A stretch of DNA of 49,969 nt, taken from the NCBI GenBank assembly GCA_902774925.1, contig CACYKE010000013.1, forward strand, positions 1-49,969, written 5' to 3'. Position numbers and translations under genes: made by a program. Shown piece by piece: positions 37,529 to 46,386 of the stretch. The first letter of the stretch is position 1; every line of letters starts with the position of its first letter. The stretch comes from an uncultured Prevotellaceae bacterium (lineage in GTDB: Bacteria > Bacteroidota > Bacteroidia > Bacteroidales > Bacteroidaceae). The notes below the pieces were generated by a model, which was not told the origin of the DNA, made no database searches, and saw only the letters and a list, made by a program, of their open reading frames with translations.

Positions 37529-38698
37529 ATGAAACCAGTAAAGATATTAAGCGTCGACGACGAGCAGGACCTTGAGTTGCTGCTGACACAATATTTCCGT
37601 CGCGAAATACGTAAGGGAGAATACCAGTTTTTCTTTGCCCACAACGGTCTGGAGGCCCTCACCCTTTTGTTGCGTGAGAAGGATATCGACATCATTCTGA
37701 GTGATATCAACATGCCGGAAATGGACGGTCTGACACTGCTCACAAAGGTAAACGAACTGCAGAACCCCGCCCTGAAGTGCATCATGGTATCGGCTTATGG
37801 CGACATGAACAACATCCGTTCGGCCATGAATAACGGAGCCTTCGACTTTGCAACAAAGCCCATCGACCTCGACGACCTCAGTTTGACCATCAAGAAGGCC
37901 ATCGAGCAGATAGAGTATATCAAACAGTCGCAGGAGGAACACACGCAATTGGAGTCGCTGAAGACCGACCTCGCAGTAGCAGGAGAAATCCAGCAGGCCA
38001 TCCTGCCACGTATCTTCCCGCCATTCCCCGAGAACGAGCACGAGCTCGACCTGGCGGCTATGATGACCCCGGCAAAGGATGTCGGAGGCGACTTCTACGA
38101 CTTCTTCCGCATTGACGACGACCATATTGGACTGGTGATGGCCGACGTATCGGGAAAAGGTATTCCCGCCGCCATCTTCATGGCCGTCAGCCGTACGCTC
38201 ATCCGCACCATTGCCCTGCAGGGTTACGATCCCGGCGTGTGTCTGACGAAGTCGAACGACCTGCTGTGTAAAGAGAGCGTTGAATCGATGTTCGTCACCG
38301 TGTTCTACGCCATCTACAACATTCGCACCGGTGAGATAGACTATTGCAATGGCGGTCACAACGCGCCTTACATCCTCAAAGCCAACGGACAGGTGGAGAT
38401 GATGCCCATGAGCCAGAACTGTCTGGTAGGAACCGTCGACGGTTGGCAATATACCAGCGCCAAGACCCAGTTGGGCGTTGGCGATACGTTGCTGATGTAC
38501 ACCGACGGCGTCAATGAAGCCTTCAACAGCGACTTCCAAGAGTATGGCGAAGACCGTATGGAGCAACTGTTGCAAAAACACAACGGCGACGACTGCCGCA
38601 CCCTCATCGAAGCACAAATGAGCGACGTCAAGGCCTATGCCGGCGACGCTCCGCAAAGTGACGACATCACCATCATGGCCCTGAAGCGAAAAGCATGA
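37529..38698 (+). CDS. response regulator fused to SpoIIE-type phosphatase
   Basis: A 389-residue cytoplasmic protein. Residues 1-125 are a receiver domain (VDDEQD at 9-14, phospho-acceptor Asp59 in DIILSDINMPEMDG, switch region VSAYGD, ATKPID). A short helix follows, then a PP2C domain from about 150 with DVGGDFYDF, MADVSGKGIPAAIFMA, YCNGGHNAPY, YTDGVNEA and SDDITIM, all metal-site motifs intact. Phosphorylation should switch the phosphatase, as in RsbU/RssB-like systems. I chose 37529 because earlier in-frame ATGs add sequence unlike a receiver domain. It leads the operon and overlaps the next gene by 4 nt. Confidence 0.93.
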   Translation: MKPVKILSVDDEQDLELLLTQYFRREIRKGEYQFFFAHNGLEALTLLLREKDIDIILSDINMPEMDGLTLLTKVNELQNPALKCIMVSAYGDMNNIRSAMNNGAFDFATKPIDLDDLSLTIKKAIEQIEYIKQSQEEHTQLESLKTDLAVAGEIQQAILPRIFPPFPENEHELDLAAMMTPAKDVGGDFYDFFRIDDDHIGLVMADVSGKGIPAAIFMAVSRTLIRTIALQGYDPGVCLTKSNDLLCKESVESMFVTVFYAIYNIRTGEIDYCNGGHNAPYILKANGQVEMMPMSQNCLVGTVDGWQYTSAKTQLGVGDTLLMYTDGVNEAFNSDFQEYGEDRMEQLLQKHNGDDCRTLIEAQMSDVKAYAGDAPQSDDITIMALKRKA

Positions 38699-40263
38699 AC
38701 AAAACCGGCAAAATCATCTCCGCAATAGCCATTATAGCCGTCATCCTGCTAGGACACCACGTCTACTTGGTTAGTTCCACTCGCGATGAACTCGTCGAGA
38801 AGAATCAGGAACTGCAGGAAAAGCTTGACAAACTCACCAAGGAGGAGAAACGTTCGGTGGTGATGCAGAGCGTCAATGCCCAGATGGAGGAGATTGCCAA
38901 CGAGGAACGCCGCATCAGTGACGAACAGCGCGAGGAGGCCATCGCACAGACGAAAGTTGCCGAAGAGATGCGCCGTAAGGCCGAGATAGAGCGCCAGAAT
39001 GCCCTCGTCGCAGAGCAACGCGCCGTGGAAGCCTCCGAAGTAGCCCGAAGTCAGCAGAAGATTGCCGAAGAACAGCGCAGTCAGGCCGAACAGTCAAAGC
39101 GTATTGCCGACACCCTGACGTACATCAGTCTCGCCCGAACTCTCGGACAGACGGCTATCACACAGTATAAAGCCGATCACCACGACATTGCTGACTTGTT
39201 GGCATATACCGCCTGCCTTTTTACCGACCGCTATCGGGGCGACATCTATGCACCAACCGTCTATCAGGCGCTGGCAATGACCAGTCAGAGCAAGACTGTC
39301 TGGCATAAACATAAAGGCATCATTACCGATGTTGCCTTTTCCGACGAGAAATCGGGCTATATGCTCACCTGCAGTACTTACGGCGAGCTCATGAAGCACA
39401 CCAACTTCGAGAGCGGAAAACTGAATAGCGAAATGCTTGTAAGCAATCCCCGCTACGATTTCCGTGACCTCTTCATCGACCGGCCCAGCAACACCACCTA
39501 CGCCCTGAGCCGTTCAGGTCATCTGGTCATTGTTGATAAAAACAAGAAGGTTCAGGCAATCGAGATTAACATACCGAAGCCCAAGGACTTAGATGTCAGC
39601 GGCGACCAGTTTATCATCTTCTGCGAATCAGGTATGGCGCTGTTCGATACCCAAAGCCGTACTATTGTTCAGGAAAAGAAGCTACCCTTCCAGATAGAAT
39701 ACATGACCCGCTACCAGAACTACCCCGTGGCTTTCGACCGTCAGGGTAACATGCACTTGATAAAAGGCTTTAACAACATCGAGACCAGCCGCGTTCCGGT
39801 GAAGGGTCAGGTGACGGCCTTCGCAGAGTCGAAGAACCAGCATCTCATAGCTTACGGCATGCGTGATGGCACCATCTACCTCTTCAATGCCAAAGGACAA
39901 CAGACCCGTCTTGTCGGGCATCAGTCGCGCATCTCAAAGCTGAAGGTCGATGGCATTCGTCTCTACTCGTCAAGTTTCGACGGCACAATGAATCTCTGGC
40001 TCACCAACGCTGCCAAGATTGAACCGATGACGCTCTTCACCACCCGTGGCTGGATCATCAATTTCACCTTCGACCTGAAGAAGACCCACGTATGGTCAGG
40101 CGATCAGAACGGCAATCTGACACAGGCCCTCATCTCCGTTTCACAGATGCAAAAGCGTCTGCAGGCAAAACTGAAGCGTAACCTGACGCGCGAAGAATGG
40201 AACTACTACGTAGGCCGTAACGTGCCTTACGAGGAAGTCAAAGGAAAGGAGGCCAGCCGATGA
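38695..40263 (+). CDS. membrane-anchored coiled-coil/WD40-like protein
   Basis: A 522-residue protein with one N-terminal membrane segment (about 7-26), a long heptad-rich coiled coil (about 30-140, full of Glu, Gln, Arg and Ala), a helical stretch, and WD40-like propeller repeats from about 200 to 490 (for example HKGIITDVAFSD, HQSRISKLKVDG and SFDGTMNLWLT). The end KRNLTREEWNYYVGRNVPYEE matches the short motif that ends many WD40 proteins of nSTAND type. No enzyme domain is seen. It overlaps the phosphatase and sensor genes by 4 nt each, so I infer a scaffold within the signalling complex, with the propeller side unresolved. Confidence 0.8.
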   Translation: MNKTGKIISAIAIIAVILLGHHVYLVSSTRDELVEKNQELQEKLDKLTKEEKRSVVMQSVNAQMEEIANEERRISDEQREEAIAQTKVAEEMRRKAEIERQNALVAEQRAVEASEVARSQQKIAEEQRSQAEQSKRIADTLTYISLARTLGQTAITQYKADHHDIADLLAYTACLFTDRYRGDIYAPTVYQALAMTSQSKTVWHKHKGIITDVAFSDEKSGYMLTCSTYGELMKHTNFESGKLNSEMLVSNPRYDFRDLFIDRPSNTTYALSRSGHLVIVDKNKKVQAIEINIPKPKDLDVSGDQFIIFCESGMALFDTQSRTIVQEKKLPFQIEYMTRYQNYPVAFDRQGNMHLIKGFNNIETSRVPVKGQVTAFAESKNQHLIAYGMRDGTIYLFNAKGQQTRLVGHQSRISKLKVDGIRLYSSSFDGTMNLWLTNAAKIEPMTLFTTRGWIINFTFDLKKTHVWSGDQNGNLTQALISVSQMQKRLQAKLKRNLTREEWNYYVGRNVPYEEVKGKEASR

Positions 40264-43040
40264 AACGCCTGTCCCTCATCATCCTTTTCCTTGGGTCAAT
40301 TCTCAATTCGTTACACGCCCAGGGCATCCCCTACCTGCGTAACTATCCTGCCACCGAATACATGGCTCACAACCAGAACTTCGACGTCATTGCCGCTGAC
40401 GACGGCACGGTCTATGTCGCCAATTTCGAAGGACTGCTCTACTACGACAATGCCGACTGGCGTATCATCCACTCGCCGGGCATAAGCCGTATCACCGCCG
40501 TTTTCCAGGACCCCAACGGCGTGCTCTGGACCGGTGGATACAACTATTTCGGCTATCTCAAGATCGATCAGCGCGGCAACCTCCATATGCATCCCTGTAA
40601 CGCCACTACACCCTTCCACGGCGAGGTACAGTGGATATGGCAGGAGAACGGCAACATTTTTTTCCTTGCCAGCAATAAGGAGATTTATGCTGTCCACAAC
40701 GACACCTACCAATTGGCGCCAGGCAAGTCCTGTCCCACTTCCAATCGCAAGAACTATGCCATCGACGCTAACATTGAGATTACTCAGGTGGAAGACCTCG
40801 AGGACGGTCTGCAGGCACTGTCCACCAACGGCGACGGCGTCATCTTCGTCGACCCCGATGGCCGTGAACTGTTCCGTATCACCGAACAAAACGGTCTCTG
40901 CTCCAACAATGTCAGCCACATGGACTACAACCGCCACGGGCTGCTCTGGGGTGCTACCGACAACGGTATCTTCTGCATTGCATTCCCCTCCATCTACATG
41001 CATTTCACCTCCTACGAGGGACTGCGCGGCGAGGTACTGTCCCTTAAACAGCTGAACGGTCATCTCTATGCCGGAACGCTCAGCGGACTCTACCGTCTCG
41101 AAAAAAAGAAATTCCTACCCGTTGCCAACATCACCCATGCCTGCTGGCAACTCGCCAATCAAGGCAATACTTTGTTGGCGGCAACGGCAAACGGCGTCTA
41201 TCGCGTTACGCCCGACAACCAAGCCGCCCGACTCACGTCCAACAACACCATGTCGTTGCTTGTCGAACAGGACGGCAGCTTCTATGGTGGCGGCATCGAA
41301 GGCGTCTACCACTATAATAACGGACAAAGCAAGCCACTGAACGATATCGTGAAAGTCGTGAAGATCGTGCGCGACCCGTCGGGCAGCATCTGGTTGCAGA
41401 ACCTCTACGGCAAACTGTGGCGCGACAAGGGTTCGGGCGTCTTCGAACCATTCACCCAAGACGGCAAAGACGAAATATCGACACTCGTCGACTTCGGCGA
41501 CAAACTCATGTCCATCAGCATCAATACCACAACCCCCATCGGCTATCCCGCGTTCTCCTATCATGACACGCAGGACGTCACGTGGCTCACCGACAACAAG
41601 GGCAAAAGCCTCTACGCCTATAAGAACGGGACACGTAATGCAGAGCAGTCTGCATTCGTCTATCCGCTCATGGACTACTCCGTCCGCGCCATGCTCACCG
41701 ACGGCAATCTCCTGTGGATAGGCGGCGACAAGGGCGTCAACATCGTCAACCGCAATTTCAAGGAAACATCCAAGAGCGCAAAGCCCCGACTGCTGCTTCG
41801 CTCCATCCTGCTGCGCGGCGACAGCGTCATCTGGGGTGGCTACGGCCCACAGCCACACAAACTCGACGAACTGCCGAGCATCGAACACCACATCGTCTTC
41901 AACTACTCCATCGACTTCCCGTGCCTGCTGCTCCCGACGCAGTACCGCACCCGCATTAACGGCGGCCACTGGTCGCCATGGGAATTCTACACCCGCGAAG
42001 AGTTCAGCAACCTCACCTACGGCAAATACATCTTCGAGGTACAGGCCCGCGATGCCTTCGGACAGGTGTCCGACATCGTCAGCATCAACTTCAGCATCGC
42101 AGCACCACTCTACCTCCGATGGTACATGATACTCCTCTACCTGCTCCTGGCGGCCATCGTCGTCTACGCACTCCTCCAGCTCCGTCTGCGCCGTCTCGAG
42201 AAGGATAAGCAACGCTTGGAGAACCTCGTGCAGGAACGCACCACCGAAGTTGTCCGTCTGGAGAAGATGGCCACGGTGGGTAAGCTCACTCAGGGACTCA
42301 TCGACCGCATCCTCAATCCCCTCAACTACATCAACAACTTCTCGAAGCTCTCGCAGGGACTGGTTGGCGACGTAAAGGCCAACGTCGAGGACGAAAAGGA
42401 ACACATGGATCCCGACAACTACGACGATACCATCGAAGTGCTCGACATGCTCAAGGGCAACCTCGAGAAAGTCAGCGAGCACGGTGCCAATACCACGCGC
42501 ACGCTGAAGGCCATGGAGGAAATGCTCAAGGACCGTTCCGGCGGCATCATTCCCATGCTGCTCAATCCCATCCTCCAGCAGGACGAGCAGATGGTCAACA
42601 CCTATTTCGAGAAGGAGATTGCCCAGGATGCCATCCGCGTCGTTTTCGACATCCCCAAAGAGGATATCCACATCAATGGCAATGCCGAACAGCTCAGCAA
42701 GACCTTCATGAACATTCTCGGCAACGCCGTGTATGCCGTCGTGAAACAGCGCAAGCGCCACCCCGACACGCCCTACCAGCCCGAAGTATCGCTGCGTGTC
42801 ACCCTCGAAGCCCAGCAGGTGCGCCTCGTATTCCGCGACAACGGCATCGGCATCGAGCAGACCATTATCGACAAGATTTTCGACCCCTTCTTCACGACGA
42901 AGACCACCAGCGAGGCCGCCGGTGTCGGACTCTACCTCTGCCACGAAATCGTACAGAACCACGGCGGCACCATCAGCGTCCAGTCCGTGAAACACGAATA
43001 TACGGAATTTACGATTAACCTTCCGCGAACTAAGAATTGA
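40260..43040 (+). CDS. Reg_prop sensor pseudo-histidine kinase
   Basis: A 926-residue membrane sensor. Signal peptide (1-20), Reg_prop propeller (about 25-520, e.g. ITAVFQDPNGVLWTGG and NNVSHMDYNRHGLLWGATDNGI), a Y_Y_Y domain (about 540-615), TM (about 621-643), a linker, then a kinase-like region. The H-box reads LTQGLIDRILNPLNYI: Asp682-Arg683 stand where His-Glu is expected (compare AHEIQNPLN in the next gene). The ATPase domain is intact, with NILGNAVYAV (N-box), DNGIGIE (G1), FDPFFTTK (F-box) and AAGVGLYLC (G2). It lacks the DNA-binding and receiver domains of hybrid Bacteroides regulators. It therefore probably cannot autophosphorylate on histidine. Confidence 0.9.
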   Translation: MKRLSLIILFLGSILNSLHAQGIPYLRNYPATEYMAHNQNFDVIAADDGTVYVANFEGLLYYDNADWRIIHSPGISRITAVFQDPNGVLWTGGYNYFGYLKIDQRGNLHMHPCNATTPFHGEVQWIWQENGNIFFLASNKEIYAVHNDTYQLAPGKSCPTSNRKNYAIDANIEITQVEDLEDGLQALSTNGDGVIFVDPDGRELFRITEQNGLCSNNVSHMDYNRHGLLWGATDNGIFCIAFPSIYMHFTSYEGLRGEVLSLKQLNGHLYAGTLSGLYRLEKKKFLPVANITHACWQLANQGNTLLAATANGVYRVTPDNQAARLTSNNTMSLLVEQDGSFYGGGIEGVYHYNNGQSKPLNDIVKVVKIVRDPSGSIWLQNLYGKLWRDKGSGVFEPFTQDGKDEISTLVDFGDKLMSISINTTTPIGYPAFSYHDTQDVTWLTDNKGKSLYAYKNGTRNAEQSAFVYPLMDYSVRAMLTDGNLLWIGGDKGVNIVNRNFKETSKSAKPRLLLRSILLRGDSVIWGGYGPQPHKLDELPSIEHHIVFNYSIDFPCLLLPTQYRTRINGGHWSPWEFYTREEFSNLTYGKYIFEVQARDAFGQVSDIVSINFSIAAPLYLRWYMILLYLLLAAIVVYALLQLRLRRLEKDKQRLENLVQERTTEVVRLEKMATVGKLTQGLIDRILNPLNYINNFSKLSQGLVGDVKANVEDEKEHMDPDNYDDTIEVLDMLKGNLEKVSEHGANTTRTLKAMEEMLKDRSGGIIPMLLNPILQQDEQMVNTYFEKEIAQDAIRVVFDIPKEDIHINGNAEQLSKTFMNILGNAVYAVVKQRKRHPDTPYQPEVSLRVTLEAQQVRLVFRDNGIGIEQTIIDKIFDPFFTTKTTSEAAGVGLYLCHEIVQNHGGTISVQSVKHEYTEFTINLPRTKN

Positions 43041-43045
43041 GAGTT

Positions 43046-43867
43046 ATGACTGATATTGAACAATTAAAACAGCAGTTGCAGCAACAAGAGAAGCTGGCCT
43101 CGCTGGGCATGCTCAGCGCCGGCATTGCACACGAGATACAGAACCCACTGAATTTCGTCATCAATTTCAGCAAGATGTCCAACAAGCTGTTGCGCGACCT
43201 GACGGAAATCATCGACGACAATGCCGACAAGCTGTCAGACAACGACCGTGAGGACGTGGCCGACATCATGAACGGCCTGCACGACAACATGGCGAAGATC
43301 GTCGAACACGGCGAACGAGCCATCAGCATCATCCAGGGCATCCTCCTCGTCTCGCGCGGCAAGGAGGACGAGTTCCTGCCCTCCGACGTCAACCGCATCG
43401 TCCACGAGTACGTCTGGCTCTCCTATCACGCCATGCGCGCCAAGGACAAGACGTTCAACATCACCATCCACGAAAACCTTCAGGACGGCCTGCCACTGAT
43501 GATGGTCATACCGCAGGACCTCAGCCGCGCAGTGCTCAACCTCATGAACAATGCCTGCTATGCCGTCCACCAGCGCACGCTCAGCGAAGGCGACGACTAT
43601 CATCCCGCCATCGACGTCACCACGGCCATGGACGGCGACCAGCTCACCATCACCATCGCCGACAATGGCGAAGGCATGAGCGACGACGTCAAGGCCCGCC
43701 TCTTCGAGAACTTCTTCACCACCAAGCCCATCGGCAAGGGTACCGGCCTCGGCATGAGCATTACCCGCGACATCATCGAACAGAAACATCACGGCCGTCT
43801 CACCTTCGAGTCCACGCTCAATCAAGGCACCACATTCACCATCACCATTCCCGTCAGGAAATCATGA
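43046..43867 (+). CDS. soluble histidine kinase with intact H-box
   Basis: A 273-residue cytoplasmic kinase with no sensor or membrane part. A short coiled coil (about 4-20) leads into LASLGMLSAGIAHEIQNPLNF with His29. The ATPase part has LNLMNNACYAV (N-box), ADNGEGM (G1), FENFFTTKPIGKGTGLGMSI (F- and G2-boxes). ATG 43046 is preferred over an in-frame TTG at 43037 that would overlap the previous stop by 4 nt. It lies between the pseudokinase and the TonB receptor. I infer that it heterodimerises with the pseudokinase and phosphorylates the operon's response regulator. Confidence 0.92.
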   Translation: MTDIEQLKQQLQQQEKLASLGMLSAGIAHEIQNPLNFVINFSKMSNKLLRDLTEIIDDNADKLSDNDREDVADIMNGLHDNMAKIVEHGERAISIIQGILLVSRGKEDEFLPSDVNRIVHEYVWLSYHAMRAKDKTFNITIHENLQDGLPLMMVIPQDLSRAVLNLMNNACYAVHQRTLSEGDDYHPAIDVTTAMDGDQLTITIADNGEGMSDDVKARLFENFFTTKPIGKGTGLGMSITRDIIEQKHHGRLTFESTLNQGTTFTITIPVRKS

Positions 43868-46386
43868 ACAAACGACTATACCTTATTTTATTGTTCTTCG
43901 CCATCACCATGACGTCGGTGGCACAGACGGAAGACGAACGCTATCGCGCCATCTACGACCAGGCCGAACAGGACTACAGCATCGGCAGAATTGACGATGC
44001 ACGCCGGACGCTCACCGCCAACATGAACAATTTCCCCCTCAGTCTCCGACTCAGTGCCTACCGTCTGCTGTCGCTCTGCGAACTGACCCTCGACAACACC
44101 GATGCCGCCGAGCGCTGCGTACAGCTCATGCTCGACATCAATCCCTACTACAGCACCACACTCTCCGACCCACAGCGCTTCATCGATATGGTCGAGAGCC
44201 TCAAGGCCGGTCGCACGGCCACCATCACCACGGCATCCAGTCAGGCAGAGTCGCTCAACGAGGTGCCTGTGCCCACTACCCTCATTACGCGTGAGATGAT
44301 TCAGGACTGCGGCGCCCGCAACCTGCAGGAGGTGCTGGTCACCTACGTCCCTGGCATGAATATCGTCGACGGCAACGACGACATCAACATCGCCATGCGT
44401 GGCATCTACAGCAACGGACAGGAGAAAATCCTCATCATGCTCAACGGCCACCGGCTCAACAGCTTTGCCACCAACATCGCCGCACCCGACTTCAGCATGT
44501 CGCTCGACAAGGTGCGCCAGATTGAGGTGCTGCGCGGTCCCGCATCGTCACTCTATGGCGGCGTATCACTCACCGCCGTCGTCAACGTCATCACCCTTCC
44601 CGGTGCCGAAGTCGACGGTGTCGAAGCCCGTGTCGGAGCAGGCAACTACGGACAGATCATGGGCAACGTCATGTTCGGCAAACGCTACTTCGACCTCGAC
44701 CTGCTCATCTGGGGCAACATCTACAAAGCCAGTGGCGAAAGCGTCTATATTCCAAAGGAAGAAACCGGTATGCAGATGATGGGCGGCGACGTCACCATCG
44801 GCGGCATCGGTCCCAAGCCCAGCTACGACGTCGGCATACAGATGAAGTACAAGAACCTGCAGTTCTTCTTCAACTCGGCTTTCTCGCAGGTCACCTCCCC
44901 CTTCACCATGAGCTACACCTTCTCGCCGTACACTTTCGACAAATATCGTACCTTTAACGGCCTCCATCCCGGATTCACTACCCTCTCCCACCATGCCAAT
45001 CTCAGCTACGGACAACAGGTCGGCAACGTCTATCTTCGCGGGACCGTCACCTACGACAACAGCGACCTTACCCACTATCAGGTCATCAGCGAACCCGAAG
45101 TCACCGCTTTGGCCGCAGTGCTCCCCGTCCCCCAATCCGTCCAGCAACAGCTGAGCGGCACCCAAGGCATCTCGCGCTACATCAACGGACAGGAACACAC
45201 CCTCGGCGGAAAGCTGCAGGGCGACTGGAACTACATCGACAACGGTACCCACCGCGGTCTGCTCACCTTCGGTGCCGAATACAGCTACTTCCAGCTCGAC
45301 GACGTCCGCTACACCTTCGGTTACAACTTCACCAAGCTCACCACCGAAAACGACACCATCCCCATGCTCGGCAAAGGCCACGAGAGCAACCTCAACGGCT
45401 TCATCCAGCTCAAGCACCACTGGCGGTCGTTCATCCTCAATGCCGGTCTGCGCTTCGACTACAAAAACCGCTACGACGGCTCCAAAATCCGCGAGTTCTC
45501 ACCACGTCTCGCACTCATCTATCTCCAGCCCAAGTGGAACGTCAAGCTCTCCTATTCCAAGGCCTTCATCGACGCACCATACTTCTATCGCAAAATCAAC
45601 CTCTTCCTCGCATCCATGTTGGGCTATACGCAGTATGCCACCGAACTCGCCCCTGAGACACTCAATTCCTGGCAGCTCACCTTCGGTGCCACACAGTGGA
45701 TTCCCGGACTCGACCTTGAGGTCAACGCATTCTACAACTACGCCAAGGACCTCATCATCCCGCAGCTCATCGAACATACCAACACTGGTTTCATCGATAC
45801 CTACGGACTCGAATTCTCCGCTAAATACCAGCGTAGGCGCTGGTCGGCAAACCTCAACGCCACCATTCAGGACGTCAGTCAAAACAAACAAGCATACACC
45901 TCCTACGACTACGCGCTCAACATCCCCGTCGTCACCGCCAACGGCGTCGTAGCCTGGCAGGCCTCGCGCGACCTCCGTCTCCATGCCCATATCGGTTTCG
46001 AGGGACGCCAGCACTACTCCTATCTCAACATCCTCCCGTATGGTGTCTATACCAGCACTATCAACATGTGGGCCGACTATATGATGAGGCTTACCGAATA
46101 TGAGCAGACCCCCAACCCCGACCCCGCCGTCATCGCAAAATATGAGGAGCAGATTGACTACTTCGTGACGTATGCCAATGAGATTAAGCCCACGCTGTAT
46201 TCCGAGGACACCCTCCCTGCCCGCGTCCTCTTCGACGTCGGCGCCAGCTATCATCTCGGCAATGTCACCTTCACCCTCGACGTCAAGAACCTCCTCAACC
46301 ACTCCTACCGCCAGAGCGGCATGTCCACATGCCTCGTCCCACAGCGCGGCCGTTGGTTCATGGGCACTGTCGCCTACAAGTTCTGA
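43864..46386 (+). CDS. TonB-dependent receptor with TPR-like N-terminal extension
   Basis: An 840-residue outer-membrane receptor. Signal peptide (about 1-20), then an N-terminal domain of paired helices (about 22-110, DYSIGRIDDARRTL and NTDAAERCVQLMLDINPYY, resembling tetratricopeptide repeats) in the place of the usual carboxypeptidase-D-like domain. The plug follows (about 128-245: PVPTTLITREMIQDCGARNLQEVL, MRGIYSNGQEKILIMLNG, VRQIEVLRGPASSLYG), then the barrel, ending with aromatic Phe (VAYKF). The substrate is not known. The gene overlaps the kinase by 4 nt, which makes it the last gene of the signalling operon. Its 3' end overlaps the SDR gene on the other strand by 13 bp. Confidence 0.9.
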   Translation: MNKRLYLILLFFAITMTSVAQTEDERYRAIYDQAEQDYSIGRIDDARRTLTANMNNFPLSLRLSAYRLLSLCELTLDNTDAAERCVQLMLDINPYYSTTLSDPQRFIDMVESLKAGRTATITTASSQAESLNEVPVPTTLITREMIQDCGARNLQEVLVTYVPGMNIVDGNDDINIAMRGIYSNGQEKILIMLNGHRLNSFATNIAAPDFSMSLDKVRQIEVLRGPASSLYGGVSLTAVVNVITLPGAEVDGVEARVGAGNYGQIMGNVMFGKRYFDLDLLIWGNIYKASGESVYIPKEETGMQMMGGDVTIGGIGPKPSYDVGIQMKYKNLQFFFNSAFSQVTSPFTMSYTFSPYTFDKYRTFNGLHPGFTTLSHHANLSYGQQVGNVYLRGTVTYDNSDLTHYQVISEPEVTALAAVLPVPQSVQQQLSGTQGISRYINGQEHTLGGKLQGDWNYIDNGTHRGLLTFGAEYSYFQLDDVRYTFGYNFTKLTTENDTIPMLGKGHESNLNGFIQLKHHWRSFILNAGLRFDYKNRYDGSKIREFSPRLALIYLQPKWNVKLSYSKAFIDAPYFYRKINLFLASMLGYTQYATELAPETLNSWQLTFGATQWIPGLDLEVNAFYNYAKDLIIPQLIEHTNTGFIDTYGLEFSAKYQRRRWSANLNATIQDVSQNKQAYTSYDYALNIPVVTANGVVAWQASRDLRLHAHIGFEGRQHYSYLNILPYGVYTSTINMWADYMMRLTEYEQTPNPDPAVIAKYEEQIDYFVTYANEIKPTLYSEDTLPARVLFDVGASYHLGNVTFTLDVKNLLNHSYRQSGMSTCLVPQRGRWFMGTVAYKF

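Follow-up and report, generated by a model that had tools for sequence, protein, structure and literature searches.

The window analysed here is a stretch of 49,969 nucleotides from an uncultured Prevotellaceae bacterium (contig CACYKE010000013.1, positions 1 to 49,969). Between positions 37529 and 46386 its + strand carries five tightly packed genes, neighbours being separated by 5-base gaps or overlapping by 4 bases, in the order receiver-PP2C phosphatase, coiled-coil/WD40 protein, propeller sensor, small kinase and TonB-dependent receptor. The first gene (37529..38698; its open reading frame is listed from 37415, with the likely ATG at 37529) encodes a 389-aa response regulator with a PP2C (SpoIIE-type) phosphatase output (Response_reg and SpoIIE in Pfam), in which the receiver motifs VDDE, SDINMPE, VSAY and TKP and the PP2C motifs DVSGKG, YTDGV and SDDIT are all present. 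The second (38695..40263), which shares 4 bases with the phosphatase gene, encodes a 522-aa protein with a WD40-like part (WD40 in Pfam), a coiled coil recognized by eye and a single N-terminal hydrophobic segment. The third (40260..43040) encodes the 926-aa sensor, made of a signal peptide (by eye), a two-component propeller (Reg_prop in Pfam), a Y_Y_Y-like domain whose match scores below the Pfam cut-off, one hydrophobic segment spanning roughly residues 623-641, helices resembling a DHp domain and an ATPase domain (HATPase_c). The fourth (43046..43867, from the likely ATG at 43046) encodes a 273-aa kinase (HisKA and HATPase_c in Pfam) with His29-Glu30; it has no hydrophobic segment, and no sensor or input domain was found in it with Pfam.

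The fifth gene (43864..46386), which overlaps the small kinase gene by 4 bases, encodes an 840-aa TonB-dependent receptor whose plug (TonB plug in Pfam) is preceded by an N-terminal extension; about 110 pre-plug residues look TPR-like by eye and give no Pfam score. A similar gene was present in 11 of the 12 other loci fetched from the family. That this gene directly follows the small kinase and recurs in this way is a hint that transport at the outer membrane is what the sensor reads. In NCBIfam no row reached the cut-off for any of the five genes (for three of them, among the best 25 of 71, 76 and 88 rows).

In the usual description, a histidine kinase is a homodimer, and a sensor and an active site are present in both of its chains. 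The first-pass annotation had proposed that the large sensor has Asp682-Arg683 in place of the His-Glu pair of the H-box, and that the next gene encodes a kinase devoid of sensor with His29 in HEIQNPLNF. Both readings were correct: the codons GAC CGC occupy positions 42303..42308 (+ strand), in GLIDRILNPLNYINNFS, and the sensor consequently lacks the His followed by Glu or Asp that marks a HisKA-type acceptor. The kinase cores of the two proteins are 25% identical (E 3e-33). Asp-Arg was found in all 32 full cores of such sensors (hereafter DR sensors), window included, and His-Glu (HE) in all 27 small kinases; every other locus read in the order, class and phylum scans had HE. The replacement is thus not a matter of chance. 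The 68 canonical comparison rows were picked by a pattern containing HE, and their His-Glu pair is therefore a product of selection. Within the box, D, R, N, P, N and Y were present in 32/32 DR sensors, and H, E and F in 27/27 small kinases. The flanking residues, said to be kept, are so only in part: the canonical A678, A681 and F690 are Q, I and Y in the window sensor. Having lost the acceptor His, the DR sensor should not itself make phospho-histidine. DR sensors combine a kinase fold with loss of the acceptor throughout their clade, as pseudo-histidine kinases do, and are DivL-like in kind, not in descent. As judged by sequence only, sensing and H-box chemistry are borne by two different kinase-like proteins, as in a split kinase.

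The design had been predicted to be conserved in related proteins, and this prediction was borne out by 33 DR sensors in 28 genomes, which represent 12 family codes and two named MAGs (the named and scanned genome collections may overlap); 32 of the 33, window included, have a full kinase core. In the family scan, a sensor was detected in 13 of 201 genomes (window included, E <= 1e-30), always of the DR type. In the order scan, 33 of 393 genomes matched at E <= 1e-40, and the 29 loci read comprised 11 DR and 18 HE sensors. The class scan gave matches in 45 of 395 genomes at E <= 1e-60; 30 loci were read, of which 25 were HE and five DR (window, G304, G403, G486 and G822, the last being a new genome). 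In the phylum scan, 77 of 395 genomes matched, and the 22 new loci read contained 21 HE sensors and one DR sensor, in the new genome G1064. These counts concern the loci read, as matches for which no locus was fetched are mostly unread (e.g. G495 and several lower matches of G822). Five candidates (G254, G299, G544, G370 and G212) were discarded, their H-box reading HE. A scan of named genomes returned at least 80 loci, with two close ones among the matches listed, L080 (RUG11071) and L081 (red deer MAG); the other 78 listed are distant kinases with unread H-boxes, 23 of which served as alignment rows for modelling.

In quick trees built with 34 canonical rows, the 32 DR sensors formed one clade even when the H-box columns were removed (SH-aLRT 100); the small kinases split into two groups in a quick tree. 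The input part of the sensors varies. A propeller was recognized by Pfam in the window and G344 sensors, and by similarity to the corresponding part of the window sensor in many others; a TPR part was found in DR sensors of G822 (contig C1), G235 (contig C147) and G216, and the input of the f105 sensor is limited to about 110 residues, by eye a membrane anchor and a coiled coil. At L161:8125-10401, tandem DR pseudokinases, apparently with a membrane anchor only, are followed by one small kinase and a phosphatase gene. Within the genus of the window genome the system was present in none of the 12 other genomes listed in the family scan, a patchy distribution suggesting transfer or repeated loss.

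The ATPase domain of the sensor had been described as wholly kept. This holds for the nucleotide-binding motifs: HATPase_c was detected with E 5.2e-21; N822, D860-G862-G864 and G888-G890, which make up the N, G1 and G2 boxes, were present in 32/32 DR sensors; and, counted as N822, DxGxG, TTK and GxG, the motifs were retained in 31 to 32 of the 32. It does not hold for their surroundings, which are eroded. DR sensors no longer have R744, the HSR that closes the second DHp helix or the EY..YH..R segment, and three further residues are kept in a minority of them: R814 (3/32), N818 (Asn in 8/32, window sensor included, and Ser in 15/32) and G886 (Gly in 11/32, Ala in 21/32). Because the ATP motifs are kept and conserved positions around them are changed, the domain is nucleotide-binding in appearance and probably not fully competent.

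The loss of several conserved residues is what would be expected if the sensor were a degenerating duplicate without a role. This is contradicted by the conservation of residues across the DR clade: D-R, NP, N and Y are invariant over the 12 family codes, the ATP motifs are kept and the sensors form a single clade. We consider decay extremely improbable.

The retained ATP motifs could serve another purpose, namely to phosphorylate the partner in trans on His29. The kinase family of FasB and FasC of group A Streptococcus presumably differs from that of the two proteins studied here. In the excerpts available of the FasBCA study (PMC12675982), FasB and FasC form a heterodimer and no homodimers by two-hybrid assay, FasC can do without its own ATPase domain, and its H246 is the proposed target of FasB. 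The likeness lies in two kinase-like proteins that divide the work between them and share one response regulator; according to the same excerpts, FasC, which bears the His, is regarded as the sensor, and FasB and FasC are membrane proteins alike (PMC12675982), whereas here the His is borne by a soluble kinase without a sensor and a PP2C phosphatase is the proposed output. Phosphorylation in trans by the DR sensor is made less attractive by the changes at R814, N818 (Ser in nearly half of the sensors) and EY..YH..R, and by the fact that the small kinase retains its own ATP site and so does not need a donor ATPase domain. We therefore regard it as an unlikely, yet serious, possibility. Of the two modes of action originally put forward, control or trans-phosphorylation, the second is possible and weakened by the losses around the ATP site of the sensor; the combination of kept motifs and eroded surroundings makes us lean towards allosteric control.

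A hidden phospho-acceptor elsewhere in the sensor would have changed this picture. Among the alignment columns with at least 10 His, no sensor-specific conserved histidine was found in the 32 DR sensors. H741 is present in 32/32 of them, but also in 68/68 canonical rows and 17/27 small kinases, and thus belongs to the EHG/HHG motif that DHp helix 2 ordinarily has; it may take a direct part in the chemistry. H901 is equally ordinary (24/32 DR sensors, 26/27 small kinases, 68/68 canonical rows), and the His at column 696 is found in only 12/32 DR sensors.

The proposed design would have been undermined if DR sensors occurred mostly alone. They do not: a small HE kinase was found in 27 of the 27 assessable genomes, the 28th, L081, being left out because its contig breaks off within the sensor. 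The small kinase was encoded by the next gene in 23 genomes; with one further genome, 24 have it within the sensor locus, and the other three have it on a different contig. The suggestion that the two genes might always be neighbours thus fails in four cases: in G073 the small kinase belongs to the same locus but is situated beyond the phosphatase gene and oriented divergently to the sensor, and in G216, G547 and G236 one small kinase was found elsewhere in each draft. In the family scan, sensor and small kinase were present in the same 13 of 201 genomes. In the order scan, restricted to 374 genomes and E <= 1e-80, frames shorter than 400 aa were found in 12/12 DR genomes versus 3/362 others (Fisher p 3.5e-20, the genomes being related). 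In both scans the small-kinase query came from DR genomes, and scoring was limited to some of the candidates in each genome (six in the order scan). Finally, the distances among sensors and among small kinases are correlated (r = 0.914 for 27 pairs, a value reached in 0 of 5000 permutations). Co-occurrence in an operon is expected from co-inheritance too, and shared history or joint transfer would also produce the correlation of distances.

The spacing between the H-box and the HG motif was 57 in 28/32 DR sensors, 23/27 small kinases and 28/68 canonical rows (two small kinases and eight canonical rows gave no match to the search pattern). AlphaFold models of the cores of the two window proteins were fairly confident (pLDDT 86.5 for the sensor and 84.3 for the small kinase, pTM 0.68 and 0.66), and in these predictions D682 and H29 both lie in a long first helix, 29 residues before its end. 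Co-occurrence, adjacency, the matched length of the DHp helices and the mirrored distances together make a DHp heterodimer of sensor and small kinase the most likely arrangement; the absence of a sensor in the small kinase, the matched DHp spacing and the correlated distances are all compatible with co-inheritance.

The sensor core model resembles the structures of LvrB, ZraS, HK853 and DivL (4q20), with TM of about 0.5-0.6. The match to DivL raises the question of whether the DR sensor could act instead as a docking platform, which would bind the (phosphorylated) receiver-PP2C protein and report its state, with no DHp-DHp pairing with the small kinase. Two residues gained in DHp helix 2 could make a new docking face: R747, in 32/32 DR sensors (Arg in 11/68 canonical rows), and E753, in 29/32 (Leu in all small kinases and canonical rows). 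To our knowledge, DivL has no dedicated small kinase in its operon. In the portions available of PMC4211667, DivL of Caulobacter is a pseudo-histidine kinase that has Tyr at the His site, keeps its DHp and ATP domains, binds DivK~P and controls CckA, hence acting on the pathway of another kinase. It differs from the DR sensors by Tyr versus Asp-Arg, by its PAS sensors and by its reading of a phosphorylated regulator (PMC4211667, same portions). The docking hypothesis leaves open what the input of the small kinase is, and a sensorless partner of equal DHp length suggests that the sensor supplies it; we find docking rather improbable.

We consider it fairly probable that the two proteins of the operon together make up a split histidine kinase: the DR sensor would govern the small kinase and, through it, steer a receiver-PP2C partner switch. 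The propeller protein would be the membrane sensor, having lost for good the acceptor His and the next Glu in favour of Asp-Arg. The soluble 273-aa kinase, with complete active-site motifs and apparently no input of its own, would pair with it via DHp helices of matching length, and the sensor would set its on or off state. The nucleotide site of the sensor would either gate the pair or phosphorylate His29 in trans. Phosphate would pass from His29 to the receiver-PP2C protein of the same operon, and the PP2C domain would act on a STAS protein held by an RsbW-like anti-sigma factor/kinase, in the manner of a partner switch. The changes in sequence, their conservation, the co-occurrence of the two genes, the order of the genes, the unequal copy numbers and the existence of STAS and RsbW-like genes are observations; the heterodimer, the direction of control, the phosphotransfer, the phosphatase target and the sharing of one small kinase by several sensors are inferred from them.

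Control could also be negative, which is a sub-case of the split kinase: the sensor would hold the small kinase in dead heterodimers and release it upon a signal. The loss of both H-box residues fits such a role, and RetS-GacS is a known inhibitory pair (as cited in the accessible part of PMC12675982). No feature found here sets the sign of control, and we hold the inhibitory version to be a lesser, doubtful possibility.

Under the split-kinase reading, the output would be the phosphatase. In 26 of 28 genomes a receiver-PP2C gene was found together with the sensor or with the small kinase, and in two of these, G216 and G547, with the small kinase only. The exceptions are G289, where none was seen and the contig ends, and G236, which gave a weak match only. 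STAS and RsbW-like genes were found within about 10 kb in 11/28 genomes, the RsbW rescan having covered the nine positive loci and eight new ones: they lie in the locus itself in nine genomes (L045, L047, L050, L160, L162, L167, L168, L170 and L247) and about 10 kb away in G344 and G822. The G304 genes follow one another as STAS, RsbW-like, DR sensor, small kinase and receiver-PP2C; in G486 the STAS/RsbW-like genes are 45 kb away. In the window genome, STAS/RsbW genes are on contigs C2, C4, C5 and C14, apart from the operon, which counts against the proposed pathway. One RsbW-like domain of this genome is part of an open frame of 804 aa that lies close to a STAS gene (L280:9766-12177), and other partner switches therefore probably exist in it.

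A precedent for the output is RsfS-RsfR of Mycobacterium smegmatis, in which, according to the available part of PMC10950880, a histidine kinase targets a receiver-PP2C phosphatase, the substrate of which is an anti-sigma antagonist, and phosphorylation lowers the phosphatase activity. The kinase described there is one ordinary protein and not a split pair (PMC10950880). From what is accessible of these sources, the closest precedents are thus FasBC for the working system, DivL for the pseudokinase and RsfSR for the output, these being likenesses by kind with a fold match for DivL alone. Among the matches listed in the open-licence full-text literature, no description was found of a Bacteroidota pseudokinase of the DR type that is paired with a small HE kinase. 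Elsewhere in the phylum, receiver-PP2C genes also lie beside canonical HE sensors consisting of one protein (e.g. L202, L203, L207, L208, L210 and L213), and the split pair may for this reason have replaced one ordinary kinase.

In three genomes more DR sensors than small kinases were found: two to one in G486, where the second sensor is adjacent; three to one in G235, where the second sensor is about 8 kb from the small kinase and the third (C147) on another contig; and at least three to one in G822, where two extra sensors (C1 and C9) are on other contigs, C9 beside full HE sensor kinases. The copies at a distance from the small kinase in G235 and G822 speak against the split-kinase reading; alternatively, several DR sensors may feed one small kinase, which would be a hub. 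In the RetS-GacS system of Pseudomonas, one kinase controls another via a heterodimer, and a single hub kinase collects the input of several sensors; unlike the small kinase described here, GacS carries a sensor of its own. More tentatively, and somewhat short of what we would call probable, these would be obligate split histidine kinases throughout the phylum, with interchangeable DR sensors (propeller, TPR or plain membrane-anchored) docking on one sensorless hub kinase to form a PP2C partner switch with many inputs and one output. Throughout one clade the sensor has permanently given up its active-site pair, which sits on a separate small protein, and the number of sensors per kinase is free to grow. 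If the proposal is true, this would be a natural, broadly conserved system with input, catalysis and output on three proteins, suited to the study of how a DHp partner devoid of His sets kinase activity, and the number of sensor kinases counted in a genome of this kind would be a wrong measure of its real pathways.

In two genomes, G299 (L320, L317) and G544 (L321, L318), a small HE kinase adjoins a receiver-PP2C gene and the large sensor keeps HE. In G299 the HE sensor, WD40-like and TonB-receptor genes are on the contig of the small kinase; in G544 the HE sensor is on a different contig. As these small kinases do not group with the partners of DR sensors in the tree, the two genomes may stem from an independent event or preserve an older stage of the split. 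In three distant families, a 970-1040-aa protein, MFS-like with HEAT repeats, adjoins the DR sensor (L164:12763-15873, L242:13618-16533 and L166:6698-9637), and a frame of like size lies beside the G299 sensor.
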